Assembly: GCA_037974965.1 (NCBI GenBank)
Contig: JBBPFI010000006.1
Coordinates: 1,364,001 to 1,428,000, forward strand
Reading direction: 5' to 3'
Source of the DNA: Dacryopinax spathularia
Taxonomy: Eukaryota; Basidiomycota; Dacrymycetes; Dacrymycetales; Dacrymycetaceae
Length of the DNA stretch: 64,000 bases
This document shows positions 41,328 to 57,954 of this stretch, in pieces. The notes under the pieces are model-generated. The model worked only from the letters and a program-made list of their open reading frames with translations. It ran no database searches and was not told the origin of the DNA. Position 1 is the stretch's first letter; every line of letters begins with the position of its first letter. The position numbers and the translations under genes were made by a program.

Positions 41328-41589
41328 TCCACAGTCTTGCCTCTGGAGAGGGAGAGCACGTGTATGCAGAGTATTTCACTACATGATGGTGTTATTCTGT
41401 TACTGTTCTCGCTAACATATCGATGTAAATATGTAATGGGTACCACATTCTCGCTTTACCACATTAGGATCGGGATTCTGGAGAACAGCTTTGTTGCATT
41501 CGGAGGCATGCTACAATCGAGGCAATGATGTAGCCGGACGCGCTGTTCCCAGCCTGGCTGCTGAGATGTAGCCTGACGCGTTTCAGAGC

Positions 41590-42244
41590 CGTCTACACCT
41601 GTTCAGTCTTCCGTTCATCCATGCTTGAGCATGAACGCACCTCCTGGAGCCTGACCACGGGCTGATGTAGCCGGTCGGCGGCTGATGTAGCCTGACGCGT
41701 TCCTCAGGCAAGGCTGGCTGCCAGCGATGTAGCCTGACTCTCGTCACCTCCTACGGTAGCCTGATCTGATCGCGGTGTAGCCTGACGTTGAGCCACTGTA
41801 GCCTGACGCGTTGCCAGAGCCGTCTACACCTAATCAGTCTTCCGTTCATCCACGCTTGAGCATGAACGCACCTCCTGGAGCCTGACCACGGGCTGATGTA
41901 GCCGGTCGGTGGCTGATGTAGCCTGATGCGTTCCTCAGGCAAGGCTGGCTGCCAGCGATGTAGCCTGACCCTCGTCACCTCCTATGGTAGCCTGATCTAA
42001 TCGCGGTGTAGCCTGACGTTGAGCCACTGTAGCCTGACGCGTTGCCAGAGCCATCTACACCTAATCAGTCTTCCGTTCATCCACGCTTGAGCATGAACGC
42101 ACCTCCTGGAGCCTGACCACGGGGTGTTGTAGCCGGACGGCGGCTGATGTAGCCTGACGCGTTCCTAGGCACGCTGGCTACTAGCGATGTCGCCAGATCT
42201 CAATAGACTTGTAGCCTGACGCTGACAAGTGTAGCCCGACGCGT
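41590..42244. repeat. 231-bp tandem unit, nearly three copies
   Basis: CGTCTACACC (third copy CATCTACACC) begins at 41590, 41821 and 42052, an exact spacing of 231 bp twice. The units are almost identical over most of their length; the third changes into the 203-bp type. Confidence 0.85.
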
Positions 42245-42640
42245 TACCGGAGGATCTGCACGGCATCAGTACTGCGCCTCATCCAGTCGTTTGAGAGGAA
42301 CGCACCTCCTGCAACCTCAGGACTGGCTGGTGTAGCCGGACGGCGGCTGATGTAGCCTGACGCGTTCCTAGGCACGCTGGCTACTAGCGATGTCGCCAGA
42401 TCTCAATAGACTTGTAGCCTGACGCTGACAAGTGTAGCCCGATGCGTTACCGGAGGATCTGCATGGCATCAGTACTGCGCCTCATCCAGTCGATTGAGAG
42501 GAACGCACCTCCTGCATCCTCAGGACTGGCTGGCGTAGCCGGACGGCGGCTGATGTAGCCTGACACATTCCTCAGGCAAGGCTGCATAGGAGCTCGAACG
42601 CTGAGCCGTCGTGGCCCGAAGGTCTTGCGTGTGGGTCTAT
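42241..42640. repeat. 203-bp tandem unit, about two copies
   Basis: GCGTTACCGGAGGATCTGCA starts at 42241 and, with one change, at 42444, a 203-bp period. Both copies contain TCAGTACTGCGCCTCATCCA. The second copy diverges after about 42590. Confidence 0.8.
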
Positions 42641-42790: not shown

Positions 42791-43113
42791 ACGTCTACCT
42801 GCAGAGACTACCCCAGTCAGGCAGCGTTCCATACCACAGCCTGAGGCAATTCAGAGAGCATTGACCGCGGCCCAGCATTCTCCACACAGAGAGGGGGTTA
42901 CTACCAGTGGGTGCCACGTACCCATTACACCCTGAGGAGGACCCCCAGCTGCCACGCAACTGGGCAGGGTCCCATTTGATTGTGGCGCTAACCGAATGTT
43001 TACACAGGGGAGAAACATGAAACGGAACCCGGACTTCGCATAGCTCTGCTACAGTAGAAAAGAGGTCTTGTTTTCAACAGTCGACCCGCTCTCAAACAAC
43101 CCTAATAATACGC
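42791..43113. other. spacer between satellite and LTR element
   Basis: No gene or repeat recognised. It contains the left copy of the ACGC flank of the LTR element at its end. Confidence 0.4.
43110..43113. repeat. target-site duplication, left copy (ACGC)
   Basis: ACGC immediately before the 5' LTR, matched by ACGC at 57951-57954 after the 3' LTR. Four bases is within the range used by Ty3-type integrases. Confidence 0.65.
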
Positions 43114-43575
43114 TGTGAGGAGTATTCTCCTCCTGAGCGGGGAATGAGGCAACAGGTGGTTACTCGAGGCCGATGGACCCTGAGCGCCGAATCTCGGAAC
43201 CAGTAGTCGCGACCGGATCTCAGAACGGGATCTAGGCCTGGCAAGCTCGGCTCGAGATCTCGGAACGGTTAGCCGGTCCGGGCGGAGACTGAAATCTCGA
43301 GGCGAGATTCCGGTATCGTCCGGAGTGAAGGTAAAATTTCGTACTTGCCCTAGACCTTACATATATCGTAGCGGTAGGTACGAAGTTAGGTGCGAATGAC
43401 CACTACGATCGTGAAACCCATCTCGTTCGCCCCACCGAATCGCCCCGCATCGCCCTCTTGAAACGAAATATCGTTTCGGTACTTCGATCTCGTCGTCCCA
43501 TTTCCCCTCGATCTTTTACCTGCCCATCGCACCTAAGATCTCTCCTGCACACCTGGGGAAGGAAAGGATCACACA
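43114..43575 (+). repeat. 5' LTR
   Basis: 462 bp, TG...CA ends, matched by 57489-57950. Contains at least four copies of the TCTCG-type palindrome, for example at 43191, 43215, 43251 and 43293. Confidence 0.93.
43293..43309 (+). repeat. palindrome in 5' LTR
   Basis: AATCTCGAGGCGAGATT: AATCTCG and CGAGATT arms around AGG, a 7-bp perfect inverted repeat. The same copy is present in the 3' LTR. Confidence 0.8.
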
Positions 43576-43578
43576 AAT

Positions 43579-43595
43579 TGGAGCCCAACGCGAGG
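43579..43595 (+). other. putative primer-binding site
   Basis: TGGAGCCCAACGCGAGG begins four bases after the 5' LTR; a TGG start next to the LTR is the usual form of a tRNA-complementary site. The priming tRNA is not identified. Confidence 0.4.
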
Positions 43596-43889
43596 GGTTC
43601 TAGCTACGCAGCCTGCAGTCACTCTTCAGGCACCGGCTGGAAGAGCCGACGAAAGTCGACTCGACAGGTATAGATTAACACGGCGGATAGGCGGCAGACT
43701 CGTCGTACGACGGCACAGAAGGCCACGGAGCGAGAGGGGACGTCATCGACAGCGGCGTCACGAATACCGCTCCGCAGAGCGGGGGAAGGTCGAACCGACA
43801 CATCCTCGACTCTCTCTTCCAATTCCACGTCTGAAGAATCGTTTCAAGATCTCGGTCCGAGACTACGTATAAGGGAGACTTCGGTAGCA

Positions 43890-46310
43890 ATGCCGCCGAC
43901 CCCACCAGCCCCGCCGGGGGGAAATGAGGAATTCGTGAATCCGGCGATGCGTATGCCGACCCGGAACAGTCCAGCTGCCCCCCGCTTTGACGGCACCGCC
44001 CTCGGGCTATCCAGGTACTTCAAGGATCTGGAATTGCTTGCTGAGGCGGCAGGACTGTCGGATTCCCAGAAAGTCGAATATGCCACACTCTACCTCGACG
44101 CCCAGACGGCAGAACTGTGGGAGACGCTCCCCACTGCTAGGCAGGTGCCGGCGGATTACCCGGCGTTCAAGAAAGCGGTCATGAGGCTTTACCCCGGATC
44201 GGATCGAGAGAGGCGCTTCCGTTTGGACGACCTCGATCGGGTTACGGAGGGTAGAAACCTGACAAGGTATTCCTCGCGGGATGACTTGGGGCGGTACTAT
44301 AGGGAGTTTCTCCCGGTAGCTACGTTCCTGAGGGAGGGAGAAAAGGTGTCGGCGAGAGAGGTGAACCAGGCGTTCATGAGGGGCTTCGAGCCGACTTTCC
44401 GGGCCCAGATATTGAATCGACTGATGCTCCTCGACACTTCTCATCCCCTCGACCAACCGTTCGACTGGGAAAAGGCGCGCGAAGCTGCCGAATACCTTCA
44501 TAACGGAGCAATGGCTGGGGTGATCCCCGATGTAGGAGCGGGTGGAGGGGCTCCGACGGGAAGCTTCTCTCAACCGGGGACGCGAGTAAAGACGGAAATC
44601 CAAGAAGTTGCACCGGTTCTGGAAGAACGAATGCGTAGGATCGAGGAAACGCTCACGCTATTGGCGAACCGAGACACCGGCCCGAGATTTCAACCCGAGA
44701 ACTCGGGGCCAGCTTACCGCGGTGGGAACGCGCCGTATCCCGGTCCTAGAGTGCGGTTCGACGCCCAAGTGGGAAACGGGGCGCCCACTGCGGCAGGGCC
44801 CGGTCCGCAAGCTTCGTATAGGCAACCTCCGCCGCACTTCAACCTCTCTTGTTTCTTCTGCGGGGGGCAAGGACATCGCACTTTCCAGTGCCAAACGGCG
44901 GCCGCGTATATCAGGGACGGGAAATGCCGAAGGGATGAGGCGGGTAGGACCATGTACCCCGACGGCTCGTATGTCACGCGCGATCCGACGGGGACGTTCA
45001 AAGAGAAGATCGATGCGTACCACGAGCGCCAGACGCGCCAGGAGGCAGGAAAAGGCGATCGACAGACCGCGTCGGTCAACCTTTACGAAGTAATGGAACT
45101 GGCCGACAACTATGTGTTGGACGTGGACGTGGGACCCCCGCAGGCGGCGTACGCCTATGGAAACATCGATCTCCGGGATTCGGATGAAGACGCTTTAGAG
45201 CTCGAGAGGCTAGAGGTCATGATTAACGAGAAAAAGCGCGCGGTTGAAGAGAAACGGAAGGGCCGAGCTGGGAACGGAAACTCGGTTCGAGAATCTGGAC
45301 GCGCCCCGGGCCCGAGAACTTGGACCGAGGGAACACGGCTGGTCCCAGAGGTGGTGATCACGCGGTCAAACCGGCCGGCAGCCATTGCGAAGGATCGTGC
45401 GGCTACGATAGAGGAACTGCCTGAAACGGAAGAAGGGCGGCCGCAGAGCGAAACAACCAGGACGGAACCGACGGAGCGACAGTCCGGCAAGCCTATGAAC
45501 GCAGAGGCAGGCCGCCCAACCGACAAGCTGCAGGAGCGAAGGGAACCGCAACATCAGTACAAGATCCAAACTCCAATCGAAGACGCAACGGTAGTGGCTA
45601 GAGTCCTCGAACGGTCCATGGACACCGCTGTCTCGTTGACACAGAGAGAGTTGCTAGCCATCGCCCCTGATCTGAGGAAGAGGATCAAGGAAATGATTAC
45701 TACTCGTCGTATTCCCATGGGTGACGTAAAAGGGGTAGAGGTTGAGGAGGCGCCGCCAGACACGGCACGCTATCACAACGTTTACTTTGTTGAGGCGGGA
45801 GGCAACCCAGAGAGAGACAGAAAACCCAAGATCGTGGTGGCTCAAGACTCGATCCCGCTTCGAATTCTCGAGGCGAGCGTGGGAGGAGTTCTTGGGGTAA
45901 CGGCGGTCCTGGATAGTGGAGCTCAGATCTGTGCCCTTCGCAGGGACCTTTGGGAGGCGACGGGGCTTCCGTGTTCTACGGACAGAGTATGGGTAATGGA
46001 AGGAGCTGCGGGGGATCTGTCGCGCACCGCCGGACTGATGGAGAACATCGGCGTGACGATCGGGAGCTGCACCGTCTATCTCCAAATCCACGTGGTCGAG
46101 GAAGTGCCGTTCGAATTGCTCCTGGGGAGGCCCTTCTTCGTCCTCACCTCATGCAGGACGGCGGATTCCCTTGACGGGACCCAGCACATCACACTTCACG
46201 ATCCGAACTCGCATAAGACGATTACCCTACCAACCAAGGAGAAGTCTTCTAAAGCGAGGACACATCTGAGGGGCAGGCAGCCTCAAGTGGAGGTCTTAGA
46301 GGATTTTTGA
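43890..46310 (+). CDS. Gag-protease polyprotein of the Ty3/gypsy element
   Basis: First frame of the element, about 806 codons from MPPTPPAPPGGNEEFVNPAM. The N-terminal half has the helical retrotransposon Gag core (ALGLSRYFKDLELLAEAAGL, WETLPTARQVPADYPAFKKA). A CCHC zinc knuckle, CFFCGGQGHRTFQC, lies at about residue 325 and binds RNA in this family. A long charged, disordered segment follows. An aspartic-protease site, AVLDSGAQICAL, lies at about residue 675, with the second-half motif ELLLGRPFF near the end. The following pol frame overlaps its end in the -1 frame, in line with the translational frameshift known for Ty3-type elements. Confidence 0.88.
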   Translation: MPPTPPAPPGGNEEFVNPAMRMPTRNSPAAPRFDGTALGLSRYFKDLELLAEAAGLSDSQKVEYATLYLDAQTAELWETLPTARQVPADYPAFKKAVMRLYPGSDRERRFRLDDLDRVTEGRNLTRYSSRDDLGRYYREFLPVATFLREGEKVSAREVNQAFMRGFEPTFRAQILNRLMLLDTSHPLDQPFDWEKAREAAEYLHNGAMAGVIPDVGAGGGAPTGSFSQPGTRVKTEIQEVAPVLEERMRRIEETLTLLANRDTGPRFQPENSGPAYRGGNAPYPGPRVRFDAQVGNGAPTAAGPGPQASYRQPPPHFNLSCFFCGGQGHRTFQCQTAAAYIRDGKCRRDEAGRTMYPDGSYVTRDPTGTFKEKIDAYHERQTRQEAGKGDRQTASVNLYEVMELADNYVLDVDVGPPQAAYAYGNIDLRDSDEDALELERLEVMINEKKRAVEEKRKGRAGNGNSVRESGRAPGPRTWTEGTRLVPEVVITRSNRPAAIAKDRAATIEELPETEEGRPQSETTRTEPTERQSGKPMNAEAGRPTDKLQERREPQHQYKIQTPIEDATVVARVLERSMDTAVSLTQRELLAIAPDLRKRIKEMITTRRIPMGDVKGVEVEEAPPDTARYHNVYFVEAGGNPERDRKPKIVVAQDSIPLRILEASVGGVLGVTAVLDSGAQICALRRDLWEATGLPCSTDRVWVMEGAAGDLSRTAGLMENIGVTIGSCTVYLQIHVVEEVPFELLLGRPFFVLTSCRTADSLDGTQHITLHDPNSHKTITLPTKEKSSKARTHLRGRQPQVEVLEDF

Positions 46311-49300
46311 GCGAGGGCCGATCGAAGGCGCTGGCCGTAAGCAGCGCGACAGTTTCGCCAAGAAAGGCCGGTAAACATATGACATATACCCACGAAGCTT
46401 CTATCCATTTATTCGAATCGAGAATACAAAACGACAAACCGACGCGAGAGCTCGGTCCAAAAACACTGCAAAAAGGCGTACAGCCGGTCAAACAGAAAAA
46501 CATATCTTATTTCTATTCCTCTACCAATCGGGCCGACGGGCAAAACACGTCGTTTCTCAGACGTCTCCTCCCGTTATTGTATCCCGTGGAGGCCGAACCG
46601 GAGGAATTTCTAAGAGCGCGGACCTACGGAACACTGTTCGGCTTCAACAGGAGGGTTGGGGTATTCGCAGCTCAGAAAGGGGACGGACGACCGAAACCGG
46701 GAAAGAAATATAAGCCGGTCCACCGGAGGGTGGTGCCTGTGGCGACAACCTTGCCGGAACACTTCCGTGTAGGGCGGCACTTCCCGAGTGACCCTCTAGA
46801 GGGGATGGCGCCTTTACCAACCTCGCCGCCAGAATTCGAACCGAGAGGTAGGGTGACGCGGGAGCGATGGGACGCGCTACGGATTGGAGAGGATGGGTTT
46901 CTTTCCCCGGAAGAAGTGAAGCTCGTCGCATGGGTGATGACCCAGCATGAGAAGGCGTTCGCCTTTACGGTGGAAGAGCGAGGAGCCTTCAAGGACGAAT
47001 ACTTCGAGCCCGTAGTGATCCCGACTGTGGAACACATTCCGTGGGCAGAACGGAACATGCCTATCCCGCCGGGGATATTCGATGAAGTATGTGGGATAAT
47101 GAAGGACAAACTCGACACAGGGGTATACGAACCCTCGAACTCCTCGTACAGGAGTAGGTGGTTCTGCGTGGTGAAGAAGGACGGAAAGTCGCTCCGTATA
47201 GTACACGATCTACAGAAACTCAACGCGATAACGATAAAAGACGCCGCTGTACCCCCGATGGTAGAGCAGATTGCGGAATCCTTCGCAGGGCGAGCGGGGT
47301 ATTCGATGTTCGATCTCTACGTTGCATTTGACCAGAGAAAGCTCGCACCGGAATCCAGAGATCTTACCGCGTTCCAATCCCCTTTGGGTGCGTTGCGGTT
47401 GACCACACTACCGATGGGATGGACGAACTCGGTCCAAATACTTCATGGGGACGTTACCTTCATCTTGAGAGACGAGATTCCGCATTCTGCGGTCTGTTTC
47501 ATAGACGACATAGGGTGTCCGGGCCCCAAATCTCGATACGAGATCTCGCCGGGAAGATACGAAACGATACCTCAAAACGAAGGAATCCGCAAGTTTGTAT
47601 TCGAGGTGTGCAAAACGGCGCACAGGGTGTTACAGCGAATCGAATACGCAGGGGCCACGGTCTCAGGTTCGAAGTCCCACATCTGCGTACCGGAGGTGGT
47701 TATCTTAGGACACAAGTGCACGTACGAAGGAAGAGTGCCGGATGAGTCCAGGGTACAGAAGATACGGGATTGGCCGGCCTGCAAATCAGTCACGGAAGTC
47801 AGGGGATTCTTAGGGGTGGCAGGAGTCGTGAGGATGTTCATCAAGGACTTCGCGAAGCATGCCCGACCACTGGTGAACCTCACCAAAAAGGACGCAGAGT
47901 TTGAGTGGGGGGAGAGGGAACAAGGAGCCATGGATAAGCTGAAAGAGCTCGTCATCAAGTCGCCGGCCTTACGACCAATCGATTATGCTAGCGGGCGGCT
48001 GGTGATATTGGCAGTCGACTCGTCGTTCATTGGAGTGGGGTACGTGATATCCCAGATTGGAGAGGACGGAAAGCGATACCCGTCAAGGTTCGGATCGATC
48101 ACGTGGAACGAGGTAGAGGCAAGGTACTCGCAGGCGAAGTTGGAACTATATGGGCTATTCTGGGCGCTGAAGGCCACTCGACTTTATCTCATTGGTGTAC
48201 CGAACCTTAGGGTGGAGGTGGATGCGAAGTATATCAAGGGTATGCTCAACAATCCCGATATACAGCCCAACGCGACCATAAACCGATGGATCGCGGGGAT
48301 TCATTTGTTTTCGTTCGATCTGGTCCACGTACCGGCGGACCGGCACAAAGGGGCGGACGGACTATCTCGTCGGGAAACTACCTTTTCCGACCCTCCGCAG
48401 GAGTCGCCAGGCCAGGTAGAAGAGTGGCTGGACGTGACAATGGGATTTCTTCTCGAGATCTCGAACCGAGATCTCGGGAATGATCCCCGGACCGAGGTTG
48501 CCGCGACCCGAGAACCGGTGCACGTTCTCCAGATTAGCGGTGAAGATCCCCTGCCTCGAACGTCCAAAAGCCGGAAGAGAGACGAACGGCTGAAGGAGAT
48601 TCAGGCGTTCCTTGAGTCGGGAAAGCGACCTGAAGCTCAGTCCGAGAACTCGTTCCGACAATTCGTTAATAGTGCGACGCGCTACTTCGTCAGAAATCAG
48701 AAGTTATGGCGGAAGGAGGGGCACGGAAGGCACCAGCTGGTCATCCCCTATGAGAAGAGGCTAGCACTGCTTCGTCAGGCACACGACGACCTCGGGCACA
48801 AAGGGGTGTACGCGGTGCGGACTAGGTTGTTGGCCCGGTTCTGGTGGCCTGGCTTGCTGACGGACGTGAAATGGTATGTGAAGATGTGTCATGAGTGCCA
48901 GGTGCGCCAGACGAGGAGGATCCACATACCACCTACCACTCCTCGGCCCCACAGACTGTTCGGGAAAGTGTACGTCGACACCATGTCCTTGCCCCCGGCG
49001 CGATACGGGCCGGGCCGACGACAATACTCCTCCTTCGTGCACGCCCGGTGCTCCCTCACATCGTGGTGCGAGGGGAGGATGCTCATGAGGGAGGACGCGG
49101 GAACGTTGGCTAGCTTCCTTTTCGAAGAAGTCATCTGTAGGTGGGGCGCGATCTCAGAAATTGTGACCGACAATGGGGCTTCGTTCGTGGCAGCGGTGAA
49201 CGAGCTGAAGGACCGTTACGACGTCATGCATATTCGGATATCCCCCTACAACTCGCAGGCGAACGGCGTAGTGGAAAGAAGGCACTATGACTTTAGGGAG

Positions 49301-49963
49301 GCGCTGATCAAGATGTGTTCGGGTGACGAAACAGCCTGGCCCTCGAAGGTCCACCATGTGTTATGGGCGGAGCGAGTCACAGTACCAAGATCGACGGGAC
49401 TGTCGCCATTCTTCATGGTGCACGGGGTGGAACCCATCTTACCGTTCGATGTCCTTGAGGCCACATACTTGATGGAGCCCCTCCCCGATGGCGTGGCGCG
49501 CGCGGAGCTGGTCGCTTGGAGGGCACAACAGCTCGAGAAGAGAGGTAACGATCTGCGCGAGATCTCGGAACGGGTATTCGCTGCGAGAAAGGAATCCGTG
49601 AAGCAATTCTGGAAACGGTTTTCCCACGCGATATTTGACTACGATCATAAGCCCGGCGATCTGGTCCTCGTTCGGAATACCAGGGTCGAAAAGGAGATGA
49701 ACCGGAAGACCAAGCCGAGATACCTCGGACCGATGGTGGTAATACGACGAAAATCGCCCTCGTCGTATATCCTCGCCGAAGTGACAGGCGTGGTCATTCG
49801 AATGGCGTTTGCGGCCTTTAGGTTAGTGCCATACGAAGCCCGGCGCCGAACCGCCGTACCTGTCACTACCTTGACGGGAATCAGCGAGGAAGAGTTAGAG
49901 GCTCTCGCGAAGCAGCTACCGGAGCCGAGCGAGGAAGTCGTTCCCAGCGAAGAGGACGCGTAA
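46307..49963 (+). CDS. Pol polyprotein (RT, RNase H, integrase)
   Basis: About 1,218 codons. Reverse transcriptase: RIVHDLQKLNAITIKDAAVP, FDLYVAFDQRKLA, PMGWTNSVQILHGDV and the catalytic CFIDDIG box. RNase H: VILAVDSSFIGVGYVISQI, then EARYSQAKLELYGLFWALKA and HKGADGLSRRE. Integrase: the HHCC domain (QAHDDLGHKGVYAVRTRLL, MCHECQVRQTRR) and the D,D35E core (VYVDTMSLPPARYGPG, EIVTDNGASF, NSQANGVVERRHYDF). The C-terminus has the GPY/F-type stretch (RNTRVEKEMNRKTKPRYLGP). Two stretches, SRYEIS after the RT catalytic box and ISNRDL between RNase H and integrase, are encoded by the element's palindromic motif. Confidence 0.93.
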   Translation: MSEGRSKALAVSSATVSPRKAGKHMTYTHEASIHLFESRIQNDKPTRELGPKTLQKGVQPVKQKNISYFYSSTNRADGQNTSFLRRLLPLLYPVEAEPEEFLRARTYGTLFGFNRRVGVFAAQKGDGRPKPGKKYKPVHRRVVPVATTLPEHFRVGRHFPSDPLEGMAPLPTSPPEFEPRGRVTRERWDALRIGEDGFLSPEEVKLVAWVMTQHEKAFAFTVEERGAFKDEYFEPVVIPTVEHIPWAERNMPIPPGIFDEVCGIMKDKLDTGVYEPSNSSYRSRWFCVVKKDGKSLRIVHDLQKLNAITIKDAAVPPMVEQIAESFAGRAGYSMFDLYVAFDQRKLAPESRDLTAFQSPLGALRLTTLPMGWTNSVQILHGDVTFILRDEIPHSAVCFIDDIGCPGPKSRYEISPGRYETIPQNEGIRKFVFEVCKTAHRVLQRIEYAGATVSGSKSHICVPEVVILGHKCTYEGRVPDESRVQKIRDWPACKSVTEVRGFLGVAGVVRMFIKDFAKHARPLVNLTKKDAEFEWGEREQGAMDKLKELVIKSPALRPIDYASGRLVILAVDSSFIGVGYVISQIGEDGKRYPSRFGSITWNEVEARYSQAKLELYGLFWALKATRLYLIGVPNLRVEVDAKYIKGMLNNPDIQPNATINRWIAGIHLFSFDLVHVPADRHKGADGLSRRETTFSDPPQESPGQVEEWLDVTMGFLLEISNRDLGNDPRTEVAATREPVHVLQISGEDPLPRTSKSRKRDERLKEIQAFLESGKRPEAQSENSFRQFVNSATRYFVRNQKLWRKEGHGRHQLVIPYEKRLALLRQAHDDLGHKGVYAVRTRLLARFWWPGLLTDVKWYVKMCHECQVRQTRRIHIPPTTPRPHRLFGKVYVDTMSLPPARYGPGRRQYSSFVHARCSLTSWCEGRMLMREDAGTLASFLFEEVICRWGAISEIVTDNGASFVAAVNELKDRYDVMHIRISPYNSQANGVVERRHYDFREALIKMCSGDETAWPSKVHHVLWAERVTVPRSTGLSPFFMVHGVEPILPFDVLEATYLMEPLPDGVARAELVAWRAQQLEKRGNDLREISERVFAARKESVKQFWKRFSHAIFDYDHKPGDLVLVRNTRVEKEMNRKTKPRYLGPMVVIRRKSPSSYILAEVTGVVIRMAFAAFRLVPYEARRRTAVPVTTLTGISEEELEALAKQLPEPSEEVVPSEEDA
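46411..46425 (+). repeat. palindrome near start of pol
   Basis: ATTCGAATCGAGAAT, a TTCG-AAT-CGAGA variant, in frame within pol. Confidence 0.6.
47528..47548 (+). repeat. in-frame palindrome in RT region
   Basis: AATCTCGATACGAGATCTCG, an instance of TCTCG-NNN-CGAGA, translated as Ser-Arg-Tyr-Glu-Ile-Ser within pol. Confidence 0.75.
48451..48480 (+). repeat. in-frame palindrome between RNase H and integrase
   Basis: GATCTCGAACCGAGATCTCG, TCTCG-AAC-CGAGA with further arms, translated Glu-Ile-Ser-Asn-Arg-Asp-Leu. Confidence 0.75.
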
Positions 49964-50387
49964 CAAGGAAATACCTCGTGATATACCCGATACCCGGGGA
50001 AGAAGATATCAGAAGTTCCTAGGAACTCCCTAGGGCGGGTGACTGATACCGCAAGGGCGAAGAAGATTATCACTCCTTATCAATCGAACACATCTGAGCG
50101 AACAACTCGAAAGACATACACGTAACACAACCGCAACGATACCTCGTCTCGAGAACTCGAGACGACTTGTACGCGCGATACCCACGAATCGATATCTCAA
50201 CTCGAGAAGTTGGATCGATAGATACACGCGAAGGACCGCTACGAGCAACGGGATCGCTACATGATAGCGAAGGCGCGGCGTCAAACGGCGTGTATTACTC
50301 AGGACGCCTAGGCGGGTATGGTAAGGACAGGATGGGAGAAAAGGCCACGCCAGAAAAACTCCCGAAGAGCGAAAGAAAACCGATCAT
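49964..50387. other. spacer between pol and the antisense block
   Basis: No coding sequence. It holds one AGAAGTTCCTAGGA site (50011) and palindromes including GTCTCGAGAACTCGAGAC at about 50146 and ATATCTCAACTCGAGAAG at about 50191. Confidence 0.6.
50010..50024. repeat. AGAAGTTCCTAGGA site 1
   Basis: CAGAAGTTCCTAGGA just after pol. The same core occurs at 53265 and 57472, the latter two upstream of antisense genes. Confidence 0.7.
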
Positions 50388-53119
50388 CTATTTACGTGGA
50401 AGCAAACCCTTCACCTCGTCCTCCAGGATACCAGCGGCGAGCGACGACATGGCCCTACTGAGATCCGACACCTCCTGATGGAGATGGGTAACCCCCATCT
50501 GCCATGTCAAAGTGTCTCCATCGTGCGCCGCGACGCCCAAACCGCCTTTAGTCCTCACGACGTCTAACGCCCGAGAGGCGGAGTTGCGTAGCCGTTCGAC
50601 GAGTTCGGGGTCGATGCTGGAAGCGCCGCCCCGCGATCGCTTGGTAGGAACGACGGGCGAGGCGATATCGAAGGGTTCGGATTCTTCGCGCCAATCATCG
50701 ACGCTCTTACCCCACGATGGGTCGGGGGACTCAGAGCGGCCTCCAGCGGGAAAGGGCGTCTCGAAGCGCGGGGGAATGGATGGCGTGCGACCCCCCGAAC
50801 TCGTATCCATATCCACGTCGGCACGACGCTTGCCTTTGCTTCGCGAGGAGCGAGCGGGGGCGGCGTCTTCCGGTGGGTCCTCGACGCGAGAACTCGGATC
50901 GAGAATGGCATCCCTCGTCTTAGGGCTGGCCTCGGCCACGGACTCGCCATCGACGCGGACGGAAGGAGTAGCCCGGGACTCTTCGGCCGGCGGGGGAGGC
51001 GGTGGCTCGACGGTTTCGGGCGTCGTCGCGCGATTCTCGCCCATTTCCACATCCATGTCGTCCCCTGCGGGAGCGTCCCCAACGGGTTTAGGGGTCGGGA
51101 CGTCGGCTTCGGGATCCTGAGCTTCTTCGCGGAGAGGGGAATCACCCGCGGCAGTCGTGGGGACGTTACCCGCGTCGCCTGCAGCATTCGATTCGAGATC
51201 TGGAACCGAGTTCTCGGGGCGAGTCTCCGCGGCGGTTTCCGGAGGCATAGGAGTATCCACCTGCTCTCCATCGTCGGATGTCGCAACACCCGCAAACACG
51301 ACGTCGAGGCGTTGGGCGCCTCCCATATCCTCATACCACTCCTCCTCTTCACCAACGAAATCGACCAATACGGAGGCCGAGTCTAATGGAAGTGGCGGGG
51401 GACCGCTTTGCGCAGGAGCCTTCTCTTGAGGCAGAGGGACGTTCTTCGTGCCGGAGGAGGTGTCCTCCCAGTCGCCAGGCATGGCCACCATATCCACCTG
51501 GGGCTCGGGCATCCAGTACTTCGCGGGGATTATACCGGCGAGCGCTGGGTGGAGATACGACACGGGCTGCGGAATGAGGAGGCGATTTCCCGTAACACAA
51601 CCTCGCAATTTGAGTAGAAAGGCTTCAGCAGCGGTGTTGATTTCCGTGATATCTGGAGCCCGGAGGCTGTACCAGACCCGGAGGGCGCTAAGCTGTTAGA
51701 GTGTTAACGGGGTAGGCGGACCGAGGAAAGGTCACTTACGCCGTTTGTGACGGCGGGGTTCGACAACACGGCACCCCCACGAGCCGCTGTTTTCGCGTGG
51801 CGCAACACAACCGCCATTCTCGGAGCGAGAAGTCGCGCGGGAACCTTGGTACGCCCGCCGGCGGGGGAGTGCTCCCAAGGGGGCATACGCGGGACCGAAC
51901 CGACAGGGGCTAAGTCGAGTTCGCCTAGAGGCAGCGCGGGACGATATTCCCCATGGTACACGTCGGCCCACTGCTGCTCGATATCGACGTATACGGCAAG
52001 GCACGCTAACAGTGCAGGGTGGGCGTTCGCTGCGGCTTTCATGGCGGCAAACACTTTGGTCTACATATCGTCTCAGCCACGATCTGAACTCTCGGTTTGA
52101 GAACTCGTACCCATTTCTCGATCCACGTTTTCGCCCAGCTCTTGTACTTCGAAAGGGTTTGGACCAAAAGGGGTGGAGACAGGGGAGCGTTCAGCACTGC
52201 CTTTACAGCCTTCCCCACTTCGGACTCGGCAACTGCGACGTCCTGGATCGCGTCGTCTAGCGCGTAGCGAAACGTTACGTCCCTACTAACGGACCGCTTC
52301 GCTACGAAGCTAGGCGGGAACACTTGAATATCGTCGTCCTTCATGGCGAAGTTGTCGATTTCCCCATATAAGGCGGTAATCTCGTCCTTCCAGTCCTCCG
52401 GTACCGGTACGTTCACGGATTCCAGCGCGCTTCGGCAATCTCCCTGCGAAATCTCGGTTCAGGATGTCGCCTCGGACGCTCGACTCGAGATATCAAGCTT
52501 ACCCAGGCGCTCACCACATTGTCCACCCACCTGCGAATCGCCTCGGGGGCGGCCTGTCGGCCAGGGCGTAACACCACCATTTCCCGCAATCGTAGCCACA
52601 AGCACCCGCGAAGGATGCCGACCGCTATCCCGTCGTCCGAAGGACCTCGCACCAATGGGCCAGATGGACCCGCATAGTCGTCCAACGCCGCGTTGGTCGC
52701 AAGAACAAGCGACGCATACCGTTCCCTTGTAGCAGCTCGGACTAAGGCGGGGTCGAGTCGAAAAGCGAACTTCTTCCTCTTCCGTAGCTCCGCGATGTAC
52801 GCCAGCCAGGCACAAAGCGCCTCATCCACGTCCCGCTCCAACGTCACCCTCTCCTGCACGTGTGCGGTGAGGATAACGCGCTGCGACTCGTCAGCGGACA
52901 GCGCACCACGACCAAGTACGCACTTACCCAATCACCCAGGGAGCGACGAACGAACGCGAGAGCAGCTGGAATGTCGGTCACCGGCGGGCCAGTAGCCTTC
53001 CACAACACGGCGTATTTATTGCGCAGCTTCTGCGCAGGCGTGGCCGGGGTGGAATCGACCTCGTCCACCTCTGAGGCGGTAACAGAGTCCACTTGCGTTT
53101 CGTCCAACACGGCGATCAT
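50388..53119 (-). CDS. antisense accessory gene 3 of the LTR element, 844 residues
   Basis: Unrecognised protein, no retroelement motif. ATG 53119 (MIAVLDETQVDSVTASEVDE). Five exons (53119-52928, 52886-52503, 52443-52111, 52060-51740, 51692-50388) are separated by GT-AG introns of 41, 59, 50 and 47 bp, all phase 0, with no stop inside any exon. The first part is helical (RNKYAVLWKATGPPVTDIPA, LSKYKSWAKTWIEKW). The last exon is acidic and Pro/Ala-rich with a basic patch (RSSRSKGKRRADVDMD), then a helical end (LVERLRNSASRALDVVRTKG). The basic patch suggests nuclear location. Introns 2 and 3 contain copies of the element's palindrome. Because these introns lie antisense to the genomic RNA, they are kept during retrotransposition. 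Confidence 0.75.
51816..51833. repeat. palindrome in antisense gene 3
   Basis: ATTCTCGGAGCGAGAAGT: TTCTCG and CGAGAA arms around GAG, inside exon 4 of the antisense gene and therefore translated. Confidence 0.7.
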
Positions 53120-53793
53120 TTCCTTGGCGTTCGATGTGAGAGTCGCGAATCGACAGACGATGACAGTTTAAAAAGACAAAGGGCGTCGAGCGGCGTTAGA
53201 CGGCAACGTGCCGCTTTATAAGGTCTTCCGGAAGCATGGCCTTTGCACGCGCCGGAGGCGGTGTCAGAAGTTCCTAGGAGGGGAAGGGGCCCTTAGCGCC
53301 ATGACAACCAGGCCAGAAGTCTCAATTCGAGAATTGAATGCCAGAACCGATGACGAGATCTCGGCGCGTGATACAGTAACGAAAGTACAGAACCCCGTGG
53401 AATGGACGAAGACGGGTGGGGGTCTTTGAGCGCAAACGGAATAGAAGCAGAATCAAGGTTCGTAGGGACCACGGAGGAAGAAAGAGGGACGAAAGAACAC
53501 AAGGGCTACACGTCGAATTCGCATCCGCGCCTCGATATCCGCTAACATACACCCTCGACACGGGTCGACGCTGTAACCGGGTTAACCACGACAACCGTTC
53601 CGGTTAAACACTCGCTGGGAATTCTCGAACAGAGTTTTCGCTCGCAGAACTCTTTTCTCAATCCGAATTCTCTCGTCGAGATCTCAAAACGTGAATTGAA
53701 GACAAACTGGGCAAAACACAAAATCCCATTATACGGACCGAATACAGACGAAGGCTACTACCACTTATGTAGGAGAAAAGAGGAACTGACAGA
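53120..53793. other. spacer between antisense genes 2 and 3
   Basis: Promoter region for gene 3 and 3' flank of gene 2. Contains one AGAAGTTCCTAGGA site about 150 bp upstream of ATG 53119 and several palindromes (for example TCTCAATTCGAGAATTGA at about 53320). Confidence 0.55.
53265..53279. repeat. AGAAGTTCCTAGGA site 2
   Basis: CAGAAGTTCCTAGGA, about 150 bp upstream of antisense gene 3. Confidence 0.7.
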
Positions 53794-55080
53794 CTATGAA
53801 GAGGGGTGGTCGCGGAGGTGGGAAGATAGTGCCAGGAGGAAGGACCAGGCAGGGACGAGCTCCTTCTGAATTTCGCGACGAAGTCCGTCCATCTCGGACG
53901 GCTCCGCCATCATCACGTCTCCACCCGGCTCTAGCATATCGGACAATTTGCGGAGGCCGCGGACAACTTCCACGAGCGTCTCGTAATCGACGCGCTGTGC
54001 GCCGGTGGGGACAAGGGCTTGGGTGGTGGACCGGACGGGGGAGAGAGGACGAGGTCGTTTCGTCCCACCCACTATTTCGATAGCAGGGGACGCGGTTCCG
54101 AGACGGGTAGAGGACGCCCCTGCCGTAGGCGTCTCGAGAAGAGCAGGGGAGGCGAGGGAGGACGTGCGGGCTGGAAAACCAAATTGAGAAACGGGTGTCA
54201 GATCTCGAAACGAGAGCTCGTAAGGGTAAACGTACTCGGTTTGGAGGGGAGGGAGGTCACGCGGGCGGGCGCGGGGCTTGCAGTGGCTTCACTGCTCGCA
54301 ACGCTGCGCTGCGCCTTGAAAGGAATGTAGTCCCCAACTGGGACGTCCCACTTCTCGCCTCGGATCTTCGCGCGGTCCGGCTTCGGGTACAACCAGCCCA
54401 TCACGGTGTCTTCGAACTCGTCGTCGTATGTCGCTTGCGACCGAGGGGGCGCGCGCTCGTCGGGCAAGTCGACAAATCGACAAGGAACTGCAGGACATGA
54501 ATGAGCGAGGGGAACGTGTTAGTAAGGCGAAGGCAGGGCGCACCATCGGAATACCGGATGGTCCAAAAGGAGCACCCCGTGCCAGACTGGCATTTGAAGC
54601 AGGGGTATCCGACGAAACGGATGCAGAACCGGAGCAAACCGTACTTTTGCGACTTCGGGACGTGGTGGTCACCCGAGCAACCGTAGAACTCCCCAGCGAA
54701 CTATCGAATCGAGAAATCAGCTCGAAGGATCCAGGCGAGAAAGCAGGAAAAAGAAGGCGCACCAGTAAGGGGCGCTGCGTCGCCAACTTATGCCCAATAA
54801 CCTGCACGAACTGCCACTTGTTCACCTGAGAGTAGGAAGGTCCTTTCCCGCCGTTGCTCCGCACATCGAAAACGACAGGGTCGTACGGGAGGAGCAAGTC
54901 GAACCGGTCGATTCCAGCGACAACCTTGCTCTTCGTTTGGAAATTGGCGAACATGTCGCGGAGCTCTTGAATGCGGTCGGGGTCATCAAGGCGAGGGCGT
55001 GGACGAGCGTTTAGGTCGGGCGGCGGGAGGACGGGGCCCCACTCGAGTGCATCGGAGGGCGCAGGGCGTTTCGAGGGCAT
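53794..55080 (-). CDS. antisense accessory gene 2, Cys-rich protein
   Basis: From ATG 55080: MPSKRPAPSDALEWGPVLPP, then a helical segment (IQELRDMFANFQTKSKVVAG) and YDPVVFDVRSNGGKGPSYSQ. Splicing after RPLL (donor GTGCGC) leads into a cysteine-rich region: EFYGCSGDHHVPKSQKYGL, RFCIRFVGYPCFKCQSGTGC, SFWTIRYSDGAPC. The Cys/His spacing suggests zinc binding, as in fungal zinc-cluster regulators, but it is not the standard Zn2Cys6 pattern. Further exons read DDEFEDTVMGWLYPKPDRAK and end RREIQKELVPAWSFLLALSS. The intron at about 54670-54735 contains a TTTCTCGATTCGA palindrome. The frame is open across ATG 55080 from gene 1, so the two could be one longer gene. Confidence 0.6.
54201..54220. repeat. 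palindrome in intron of antisense gene 2
   Basis: GATCTCGAAACGAGAGCTCG, TCTCG-AAA-CGAGA, inside an apparent intron that ends before the exon containing ARTSSLASPALLETPT. Confidence 0.7.
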
Positions 55081-57287
55081 CTTGTAGTAGAGGCCGAGAG
55101 CAGAAGAAGATGGCGTCCGGGGAAGAGTGGCGGAATGACGGGTGCTGGCGCACGTCTGGATGTGATCAGCGGTTCTGGTCCCGCGTGGCGGTGCTGGACC
55201 CGATCGCCCGGCCCGAATGCCCGATCTGAGATCTCGAGTCGGAATCTCGATGACGTCGTTTTCCGAATCGGGAGTCTCGGCCCCAGAATCCGGGGCGAAT
55301 TCCGAGCCGGAAGGAAGAGAAGAGTCGCCTTCTTCTTCTGCAGGGGCTTTGGAGTCGGACGGGCGTAAGGAAGCGCGGCCGGACGCGACCCCGCGCGTGA
55401 CATATCGAGTAGTCTCCACTGGGAAGACGGCTTCGTGGAAAGCGTCGGCGGGCATCGAATCGCACGCAAGAATCTGTCCGCCCTTCAGAATGGTATGGCG
55501 GGAAGGTGCTGGGCTGGAAATGTGGCCCGAGGAGGATATGTCGCCGTCGGTTTCGTCGCCAGACTCGATGAATTCGGCCAGGTCGTGCACGCGGAGGAAA
55601 GAAGGCGAAAGGGTTTCGATAGGAAGTGCGATAGGGATCCGGAATCGATTACGGAGTTTAACGGCAGTGTCGATAATGCGACCGACGGCCTCGTCAAAAA
55701 CGGGACTAAAGACAATTCTCGTATCGAAGAAACGGCGTAGGGGAACGCTCTGGAGAATTCGAAATGAGAAACGGGACGGAGAGCTCGACGCGAGAATGAC
55801 GTACCAGAGGATATAATTTGGAAGACCACTCTTGGGCTTCCCCCAAGGTCGCAACGTCGCCATCGAGAGACGGGAGGCGATTGGCCAACCCCTCGGCATA
55901 GGCCATGAACAACCCTAGATCGGTGGGGATTTCGTCCTTTCGATAAGAGACGGCGGGAGGCCAGGGGCCGAACTCGGCGTGGAGCATCTCGAGCCTGCCG
56001 TAATCCACGTCGGACGCAACGTCGCACTCGACCTCAATACCGCGCAAGGTGTCGGTGTAGACATATAGAATCGAGTAGATGAGGGGGGTGGCTTGATCGG
56101 GATGGTGTCCGAGGGTAGCAGCGAGGGAGTTGATGGTGTCTGCGATGCGGCTGGCCCATTTAACCAGTTTTCGGGGCGACGACGGGTAAGGGGAGCCAGC
56201 AAAGAAACGGATCGCGCGGTCGACTGGGTACGAGCGGTTCTCTTTAGCGCCAACCGGCTCCTGGAATCTCGCGGCGAATTCTTGTTCCGATTTCTCGGCT
56301 GGAAGTCGGAAACGGAGAAGGAAACCGGGACCGAAAAGCTGGAAAGGATTCAGCTCGTCGTAGGCCGTCCAGTGACATTCGAGGACAAGGCGGAGCGCGG
56401 CGGTAAGGATGATGGCAAGGTCGCCTAGCGGGACGAAGGACGAGCGATAATGCGTAACGCACGTCCGCTGTGGGGAAGGAAAGTGTGAGAAAATGGGGAG
56501 GAAAGAAAGGGATGGGCGTACCACCAAGCCAGCGAGTTTAGTGGCGCGACCCGGAACGGCCTCGCCGCACATTCGTCCAAGCACGAGCTCGAGGTAGGCG
56601 AGAGAGAGTCGCCTGGTGTAGTCGCCGGAGAGCGTTTGCTGTGCGACCGTTATTCGGGTGGTCTCATCGCGGAACATCGGATCCCTTTCTCGCCGTGGGT
56701 TCCCGCCCCGAGAATACCACCAGCTATGAATCTCGATTGGAGAACCGTTTTCGATGTTGCGGCGAGTCGGGTCGAAATCGGAAGGGATAATCCGGTCGGA
56801 GGCTTCAGATGAGCGGTTGGCGAAGACGGGGAGAGGTGTACCCGTTTCGTCCACCAGTCCCCACTTCTCCAAGTAGCGCAGGGCGCGGCGGTACACTCTG
56901 GCTGGGGCGGTCTCGAGCAGCGACGAAAAACAGCCAAATTGGTGGTCCGTGAACCACCCCGCTTGTCGGCGACTGGCGACGAAAGCGAGCCATCCGGCCA
57001 GCGCGTCTCTCTTGGCGAGGGGCCACTCATCGTGTTCATTCGCTTCCCGGCAAAGGTCCGTCTGGAAAAACGGTCAGACGAAATGCCCGACGAGGGCCAT
57101 GAAGGCAATCAGCGGGACGTACCCAGATCTCGCCGGTCCGCTCTACAAACGGACCAAACTCGCGCCATCTCGCAGGGTATCCATCCCAGGCTTGCAAAGG
57201 GCGAGACCAGGGTTCGTCGGGCACGGAGAGGCGGATATCCGAGGGTGGCTTCCAGAATTGCGAACGGCGATGACCTTGAGTAGGCAT
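55081..57287 (-). CDS. antisense accessory gene 1
   Basis: From ATG 57287: MPTQGHRRSQFWKPPSDIRL, then PLQAWDGYPARWREFGPFVE and RTGEIWVRPADCLHGPRRAF, a conserved-looking opening. Later exons give LAYLELVLGRMCGEAVPGRA, an open frame around 55706-56896 (RYLEKWGLVDETGTPLPVFA, MLHAEFGPWPPAVSYRKDEI), then AVGRIIDTAVKLRNRFRIPI and LRVHDLAEFIESGDETDG, and an acidic Ser/Pro tail. At least three introns are needed. No domain is recognised. Its upstream region is only 201 bp and abuts the 3' LTR, so the LTR could supply an antisense promoter. The 3' limit against gene 2 is not certain. Confidence 0.55.
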
Positions 57288-57471
57288 GACGAGGGCGGTG
57301 GTTTACAAGCGATGTGTCGGCTAGATCATTACGAGTTCGACACGACAAAGGGCGCACCAGCGCCACTTGGCCGGAACCATTCGATCCAGAAGCATCTTCG
57401 CTCGCTTTCTCGGGCTGAGTAATCAACACGATTATAGGAGTGCGGAGGGGGCGGCCGTGGGAGGCCGCGTC

Positions 57472-57485
57472 TGAAGTTCCTAGGA
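57472..57485. repeat. AGAAGTTCCTAGGA site 3 (TGAAGTTCCTAGGA)
   Basis: About 185 bp upstream of antisense gene 1 and four bases before the 3' LTR. Confidence 0.65.
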
Positions 57486-57488
57486 CTA

Positions 57489-57950
57489 TGTGAGGAGTAT
57501 TCTCCTCCTGAGCGGGGAATGAGGCAACAGGTGGTTACTCGAGGCCGATGGACCCTGAGCGCCGAATCTCGGAACCAGTAGTCGCGACCGGATCTCAGAA
57601 CGGGATCTAGGCCTGGCAAGCTCGGCTCGAGATCTCGGAACGGTTAGCCGGTCCGGGCGGAGACTGAAATCTCGAGGCGAGATTCCGGTATCGTCCGGAG
57701 TGAAGGTAAAATTTCGTACTTGCCCTAGACCTTACATATATCGTAGCGGTAGGTACGAAGTTAGGTGCGAATGACCACTACGATCGTGAAACCCATCTCG
57801 TTCGCCCCACCGAATCGCCCCGCATCGCCCTCTCGAAACGAAATATCGTTTCGGTACTTCGATCTCGTCGTCCCATTTCCCCTCGATCTTTTACCTGCCC
57901 ATCGCACCTAAGATCTCTCCTGCACACCTGGGGAAGGAAAGGATCACACA
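57489..57950 (+). repeat. 3' LTR
   Basis: 462 bp; identical to 43114-43575 except for one C/T difference that I could find, near position 57834. Confidence 0.93.
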
Positions 57951-57954
57951 ACGC
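57951..57954. repeat. target-site duplication, right copy (ACGC)
   Basis: Matches 43110-43113 on the far side of the element. Confidence 0.65.

Follow-up and report, generated by a model that had tools for sequence, protein, structure and literature searches.

In a 64,000-nucleotide stretch of the Dacryopinax spathularia genome (positions 1,364,001 to 1,428,000 of contig JBBPFI010000006.1, hereafter the window), positions 43114-57950 are occupied by a Ty3-type long terminal repeat (LTR) retrotransposon with an antisense block of 7525 bases between the pol stop and the 3′ LTR. Our analysis indicates, with a probability of about 0.8, that this element carries two intron-bearing antisense protein genes, g1/2 and g3, as a lasting accessory cassette. 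This conclusion is based on the presence of the block in all five full-length copies of the element, purifying selection on both genes, retention of their introns and a second family that has homologous genes in the same place and orientation. An earlier inspection of the window, made from the letters alone and referred to below as the sequence-only reading, had proposed an LTR element with an antisense, intron-bearing block in this position, and the LTRs, the open reading frames (ORFs) and the coding signal confirm it.

Two spliced antisense genes under purifying selection

The block holds two genes on the minus strand, g1/2 first and g3 after it (Table 1). Gene models were derived by dynamic programming on the periodicity signal and then corrected using homologues and splice-site sense. 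A first model, which had other acceptors for two introns and missed one intron, was superseded by the refined one, and the ratios of non-synonymous to synonymous substitution rates (dN/dS) were recomputed. In the alignment of the block from different copies, the 1064 variable columns fall mostly at every third base in the antisense frames, and the preferred phase of variable sites jumps near the intron borders of these frames, which argues that the block is coding.

Between copies, g1/2 and g3 evolve under purifying selection about as strong as that acting on gag and pol. When copy A (the one in the window) was compared with copies B, C, D and E, dN/dS was 0.158, 0.221 (partial), 0.118 and 0.152 for g1/2, and 0.18, 0.307, 0.234 and 0.218 for g3; the same comparison gave 0.107-0.182 for the 3′ half of gag and 0.127-0.201 for pol. 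As a control, the other five frames were evaluated on the same columns for the pair A-E. Four of them yielded values of at least 1.04 for each gene, and the fifth, a sense frame, gave 0.25 (g1/2) and 0.38 (g3) but contains 27 and 6 stops, respectively. For g1/2 of the two truncated copies, F and G, dN/dS was 0.887, a value derived from only 15 changes (4 synonymous, 11 non-synonymous). Counting F and G, 61 of the 62 intron instances retain GT-AG borders, namely 41/42 for g1/2 (seven copies) and 20/20 for g3 (five copies).

These data bear on the idea that the selected product is an antisense RNA tuning the element through double-stranded RNA or silencing, with coding as a by-product. Given its position, the block runs antisense to full-length genomic RNA, and regulation of this kind is discussed for other elements (PMC7264820). 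Nevertheless, synonymous changes per site are about 3 to 8 times the non-synonymous ones and the phase jumps near introns. Since selection on RNA alone would not follow codons, we consider this explanation largely refuted and highly improbable as the main one; antisense RNA might still have an extra role.

The sequence-only reading had counted two or three minus-strand genes. Antisense genes are indeed present, but its genes 1 and 2 are better read as one, with a single frame apparently running through the exon at 55749-54763, so that two genes result, as in the homologous family. We merge them because the corresponding stretch of the second family (H, see below) is one 943-codon ORF (L056:1286-4114), which reaches into the region directly preceding the Cys-rich exon, and because an ORF in a chromosomal cluster (L057) likewise bridges the two. 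For gene 3, our g3, the proposed extent (50388-53119) and the four GT-AG introns, all in phase 0, hold; the intron lengths come to 47, 59, 50 and 47 bp against the 41-59 bp given, and the product to about 842 rather than 844 residues, the acceptor of intron 1 being ambiguous. The introns are not confined to that gene, as g1/2 has six. An origin of g1/2 and g3 from one another by duplication was considered and found unsupported (hhalign probability 2.5).

Copies of the element in the genome

The genome (29.2 Mb in 24 contigs) was searched with the block and the LTR as queries; all counts are lower bounds. Five full-length copies were found, each carrying the block, whose DNA identity in copies B to E is 93-98%, and each flanked by a 4-bp target duplication. 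LTR matches number 13, corresponding to five pairs, one solo LTR and two LTRs on truncated copies. In the order A to E, the paired LTRs differ at 1, 1, 3, 3 and 9 positions, and the low numbers of mismatches suggest that most full copies are recent. The first 20 bases past the 5′ LTR are identical in all five. Copies lacking the block or carrying it in random decay, which the sequence-only reading had set against its own proposal, did not turn up: the block is in 5/5 copies and its genes are constrained, though three copies bear a lesion. Its claim that antisense introns survive retrotransposition is likewise supported, as the introns are kept in independent insertions with their own target duplications, in keeping with the intron positions common with family H.

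Truncated copies F and G, with two indels and two stops in g1/2, are counted as one event because their outer flanks are common to both as far as compared. We rejected the view that they reflect an exchange of cassette modules: their other side is the gag of another family in opposite orientation.

The insertion sites point to a target-site preference. The duplications are ACGC in copies A-D and the reverse complement of this, GCGT, in E; the solo LTR on C18 has GCGC, as does the one flank seen of family H. The pattern RCGY is matched by all seven sites (A-E, the solo LTR and the H flank). The right flank of F and G, CCGC, lies outside this pattern. Divergence between A and D is uneven, with dS (synonymous changes per site) of 0.32 in the gag half, 0.08 in g1/2 and 3% divergence in introns, which suggests recombination among copies.

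A second family with the same arrangement

The nearest other pol in the genome (C3:133908-137408) belongs to a distinct family, H, and is 69-72% identical to that of the window family, with gag 51% identical over 499 amino acids (aa). Family H has a homologue of g1/2 (two matches, one of 24% identity over 658 aa with E = 1e-12, the other of 25% over another 201 aa with E = 1e-5) and one of g3 (29% over 130 aa, E = 8e-6; 29% over 91 aa). Both occupy the interval from pol to the 3′ LTR, are antisense to pol and follow the same order as in the window element. As read from the DNA, a phase-0 intron before the Cys-rich exon, following '..LL' or '..VL', is common to g1/2 of the window, H and both g1/2-like genes of the chromosomal stretch L057, and a phase-0 intron after '..W' in g3 is common to the window, H and the chromosomal stretch L059. 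Thus, one intron position per gene is common to the two families.

All five copies belong to one family, as would be expected if the block were a chance nested insertion hitch-hiking in one master lineage. However, constraint on the genes resembles that on gag and pol, and a second family has homologous genes in the same place and orientation, so that such hitch-hiking seems even less probable than selection on antisense RNA.

Family H itself seems to be nested in another repeat, as its flank (L056:1-535) matches C4, C5, C9 and C16 at 97-99%, near the pol of another Ty3 family. A further Ty3 family (L042, L043, L044 and L047; pol 48% identical) also has a Cys-rich ORF in antisense orientation, located about 1 kb past pol (L043:5461-5823, minus strand); the search with this ORF gave 11 match rows at nine places, eight of them near a pol match of opposite orientation. 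Its homology to g1/2 is unsupported (hhalign probability 0.3).

Structure of the element

Assignment to Ty3/gypsy (Metaviridae) is based on paired LTRs with a target duplication and on the order of the pol domains: reverse transcriptase (RVT_1, residues 307-488), RNase H (552-681) and integrase (Integrase_H2C2, 831-887). RNase H and the integrase zinc domain score over their cut-offs, and RVT_1, at 28.9 bits, just under its cut-off of 29.6. A tandem array of 203- and 231-bp units (41584-42584) lies directly upstream of the element, and short palindrome-like words of the TCTCGNNNCGAGA type are repeated along it in the LTR, pol and introns (43258, 43295, 47531, 48459, 54203 and others).

Table 1. 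Features of the element in the window (copy A), its other copies and the LTRs of family H
Feature	Position	Strand	Remarks
5′ LTR	43114..43575	+	TG..CA; 1 difference from 3′ LTR in 463 aligned bases
3′ LTR	57489..57950	+	TG..CA; aligned to 5′ LTR
Target-site duplication ACGC, left	43110..43113	.	4 bp
Target-site duplication ACGC, right	57951..57954	.	4 bp
Putative primer-binding site TGGAGCCCAACGCGAGG	43579..43595	+	assigned by position alone; TGG.. sequence beside 5′ LTR
gag-protease ORF, stop to stop	43674..46310	+	PF13352 DUF4100 and PF13650 Asp_protease_2 over cut-off
pol ORF, stop to stop	46253..49963	+	reverse transcriptase, RNase H (PF17919, PF17917), integrase zinc domain (PF17921)
Motif GAAGTTCCTAGGA, copy 1	50012..50024	+	just after pol
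Motif GAAGTTCCTAGGA, copy 2	53267..53279	+	upstream of g3; F and G lose their similarity to the family inside it
Motif GAAGTTCCTAGGA, copy 3	57473..57485	+	3 bp before 3′ LTR, expected place of plus-strand primer
g1/2	53794..57287	-	7 exons, 1046 aa; periodicity, dN/dS, GT-AG retention
g1/2 exons	57287-57123, 57061-56522, 56467-55805, 55749-54763, 54700-54544, 54487-54236, 54170-53794	-	
g1/2 introns (six)		-	61, 54, 55, 62, 56, 65 bp; refined model
Cys-rich exon of g1/2	54544..54700	-	common to family H and two L057 genes
g3	50388..53119	-	5 exons, about 842 aa; periodicity, dN/dS, GT-AG retention
g3 exons	53119-52928, 52880-52503, 52443-52111, 52060-51740, 51692-50388	-	
g3 introns (four)		-	47, 59, 50, 47 bp, all phase 0; intron 1 acceptor ambiguous
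Spacer between g1/2 and g3	53120..53793	.	indel-rich between copies; presumed site of g3 promoter
Copy A	window, 43114-57950		full-length
Copy B	C9:450843-465697		full-length
Copy C	C5:1029092-1043668		full-length; 257 bp of block deleted
Copy D	C1:439712-454544		full-length
Copy E	C6:311190-326025		full-length
Copy F	C8:350246-354919		truncated; g1/2 half and 3′ LTR alone, about 87-90% identity
Copy G	C1:2494103-2498786		truncated; g1/2 half and 3′ LTR alone, about 87-90% identity
Solo LTR	C18:548883-549345		
Family H LTRs	C3:124945-125387 and C3:140226-140668		443 bp, 100% identical

Chromosomal homologues and the origin of the cassette

Homologues of the antisense genes also occur at C3:881-899 kb and C15:619-630 kb without a detected pol. 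Absence of pol was judged by searching the genome with pol and with an RNase H model, each of which yields lower bounds, and by tblastn of gag and pol against the stretches L057 and L058. Of the two clusters, only that on C3 was read (C3:881400-897400 and C3:898150-899650; L057, L058 and L059). It contains a g1/2 and g3 pair in the element order, which in L057 also keeps the strand arrangement, a second g1/2-like gene and two more g3-like genes, as well as, in L058, a further long ORF and a kinase-like gene (Pkinase match at E = 4e-5, under its cut-off). Neither gag nor pol left a trace in L057 and L058 by tblastn, and a scan of L057 for repeats of at least 40 bases found none.

Where they align, g3 homologues from outside the family show 21-39% identity, and the g1/2 match in the C3 cluster is 29-40% identical; values of 48-58% are reached only in short pieces of decayed fragments on C2 and C10. 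These decayed and rearranged g1/2 fragments (L017-L021; C2:41-45 kb and C10:1170-1174 kb) lie on both strands and show 70-77% DNA identity. No close source gene for a transduction was found elsewhere in the genome, the best candidates being at the identities just given. In a g3 tree of five sequences, the H gene groups with the chromosomal genes at C3:898k and C3:891k with support of 66.

Two accounts of the relation between clusters and elements have to be weighed. Under the first, the element transduced a host gene pair from a chromosomal cluster and is only the vehicle of proteins that do host jobs. The pol-free homologues on C3 and C15, the L057 pair with the element's order and strand arrangement, the kinase-like gene and additional long ORF in L058, the intron positions in common with chromosomal genes and the grouping of H with the C3:898k and C3:891k genes would all be in line with it. 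Yet the cassette is found in all five full-length copies and in a second family and is under purifying selection along element lineages, and the chromosomal genes are all distant, with the cluster g3 homologues at 21-39% identity. We therefore regard transduction as possible but doubtful. According to the second account, the genes arose as accessory genes of the element, and the clusters derive from old insertions, pieces of which were domesticated or have survived. The element-like gene order and strand in the L057 pair agree with this too, the g3 tree leaves the direction undecided, and the decayed g1/2 fragments at C2:42-43 kb and C10:1171-1173 kb could be further remnants; however, L057 and L058 bear no tblastn trace of gag or pol, and L057 no repeats of at least 40 bases. 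This derivation, too, is somewhat unlikely.

A motif repeated three times per copy

The 13-base motif GAAGTTCCTAGGA, which includes the palindrome CCTAGG, is exact at all 15 places, three in each of the five full copies. The genome contains it exactly 18 times, that is, 15 times in the full copies, twice by the 3′ LTRs of F and G and once elsewhere, and a reversed control pattern has a single genome match. When up to two mismatches are allowed within the window, four matches are obtained versus a shuffle mean of 1.5, and 8 of 100 shuffles reach four, so that weight is placed on the exact matches. The third site, despite its primer position, is not purine-rich. In family H the corresponding place before the 3′ LTR is taken by a related sequence, AAAGTCCCTGGGA, with no second exact copy in the parts of H examined.

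The end of F and G homology inside the middle motif fits internal plus-strand initiation, though it represents one event. On another reading the motif is a putative protein-binding site, since two of its three copies precede antisense start codons by about 150 and 190 bp.

Protein searches

Pol of the window element gave 1300 matches in the protein database; among the 120 matches listed are sequences from Rhodofomes, Leucocoprinus, Pleurotus and Candolleomyces. The g3 search gave zero matches at E 0.001 among 8000 candidates, and that with the family H g1/2 ORF none at the same threshold among 7999; both are weak negatives, as the genes are spliced. Solved structures searched with the exon at 55805-56467 returned a single match at E = 0.99, and viral contigs no match. 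A match of Faf1 to the H ORF (E = 0.006, residues 697-830) was discarded, the stretch being of low complexity by eye. The features discernible in the antisense proteins are the Cys-rich exon of g1/2, some cysteines of which are missing in some homologues, and long Pro/Ser/Glu-rich stretches (judged by eye).

Proposed mechanism and its assessment

Retrotransposition normally erases introns, and retroelements are expected to carry intron-free genes. For the element described here, we propose that g1/2 is transcribed from its own promoter near the 3′ LTR and g3 from one in the 53.1-53.8 kb spacer, both transcripts then being spliced. The gag-pol genomic RNA would read the g1/2 and g3 introns backwards, so that they would not be spliced out of it and would pass through reverse transcription. 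The antisense proteins would serve the element; in line with what has been put forward for the antisense genes of Grande and Retand, they may be nuclear regulatory or complex-forming factors, a role for which the Cys-rich exon and the Pro/Ser/Glu-rich stretches are the only hints.

Several observations weigh against a lasting accessory cassette. Three of the five full copies are damaged in one antisense gene: C has a 257-bp deletion in the last exon of g1/2, D has a 2-bp deletion in g3, and in g1/2 of E one base is deleted, a premature stop is present and one splice donor is gone. The antisense proteins are only 24-29% identical between the families, versus 69-72% for pol. A single ancestral capture lacks support given this divergence of 24-29% identity and the fact that the element g3 copies are ungrouped in a small, weak tree (support 66). 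No Pfam family scored over cut-off for the antisense exon ORFs, their homologues or the two spliced proteins, and an AlphaFold2 model of 55805-56467 (minus strand), built without an alignment, was unusable (pLDDT 37). As g3 and the H g1/2 ORF have no match at E 0.001 in the protein database while pol has abundant matches, a cassette outside this genome lacks support. Antisense transcription, splicing and promoters are deduced from the DNA, and help to the element is likewise a deduction from selection and retention only.

As regards the damage, g1/2 is open from start to stop in 3/5 full copies (A, B and D) and g3 in 4/5 (A, B, C and E), and gag-pol is also damaged in the stretches compared, with three stops in pol of E and one in gag of C. 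Constraint thus characterises the lineage as a whole, and individual copies deteriorate in the way usual for any element. Fast divergence of the block proteins would be in keeping with a role under shifting pressure, but separate acquisition of the genes would leave the same picture.

More speculatively, the two spliced antisense genes may form a fixed module essential to the success of a fungal Ty3 lineage, evolving much faster than pol in the manner of envelope or arms-race genes and exchanging with the chromosomal gene-pair clusters, with the thrice-repeated CCTAGG motif serving as plus-strand initiation sites or as a binding site of the module's own protein; we offer this as a tentative idea. 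If it is true, introns readable on one strand only would be the mark of a general route by which retroelements keep spliced genes. In the accessory-cassette reading itself, ten introns have outlasted independent insertions of one family, and for each gene one position recurs in the second family and in chromosomal homologues. These findings suggest that spliced genes, when placed antisense, can travel with an RNA-based element for a long time, unless both families acquired the genes separately.

Comparison with known elements

The sequence-only reading knew of no described family with this layout, which does not hold up: antisense ORFs between pol and the 3′ LTR are on record in the plant elements Grande, RIRE2, Retand and PvRetro13 (PMC7264820) and as the antisense gene brtn in Boty of Botrytis (PMC7264820, PMC8365987), brtn lying between pol and the 3′ LTR according to PMC7264820. 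The function of such genes is stated as open in PMC7264820 and PMC11963269.

Plant Ty3/gypsy elements (Grande with gene23, RIRE2, Retand with TRP28, and PvRetro13) resemble the element studied here in the antisense orientation, the position between pol and the 3′ LTR, presence in most copies, conservation near that of other element proteins and a long pol-to-LTR region. The features expected of an antisense accessory ORF are found here as well, with the block in 5/5 full copies and in family H and within-family conservation like that of other element proteins, although g1/2 and g3 differ between families far more strongly than pol does. Unlike the plant elements, the present one has two genes, with six and four introns, and chromosomal homologues sharing intron positions; the main text of the Retand paper contains no word beginning with 'intron'. 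The TRP28 domain of Retand (PF04195) is absent from the Pfam matches of both spliced proteins, the exon ORFs and the homologues.

In a retrovirus, human T-cell leukemia virus type 1 (HTLV-1), HBZ is a spliced antisense regulatory gene. It is likewise an accessory gene in antisense orientation near a 3′ end, which makes the likeness one of function only, with no membership claimed (PMC11963269, PMC7264820). Among fungi, the pol of Rhodofomes roseus EVJ58_g9240 (P0004), an agaricomycete Ty3 pol, is 59% identical over 85% of the query and shares its RNase H and integrase zinc domains. Likewise fungal are the Boty-like LTR elements of Botrytis cinerea with an antisense gene, but a single one (brtn) is named for them, and the likeness is one of description, not of sequence. 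No fungal element with spliced antisense genes was recognised in the literature from titles and the beginnings of abstracts, most subscription papers being beyond reach. Antisense ORFs in this position are thus already known, whereas two selected multi-exon antisense genes look new, and with five copies, a second family and chromosomal relatives in one 29-Mb genome they provide a tractable case for the role of antisense genes between pol and the 3′ LTR.

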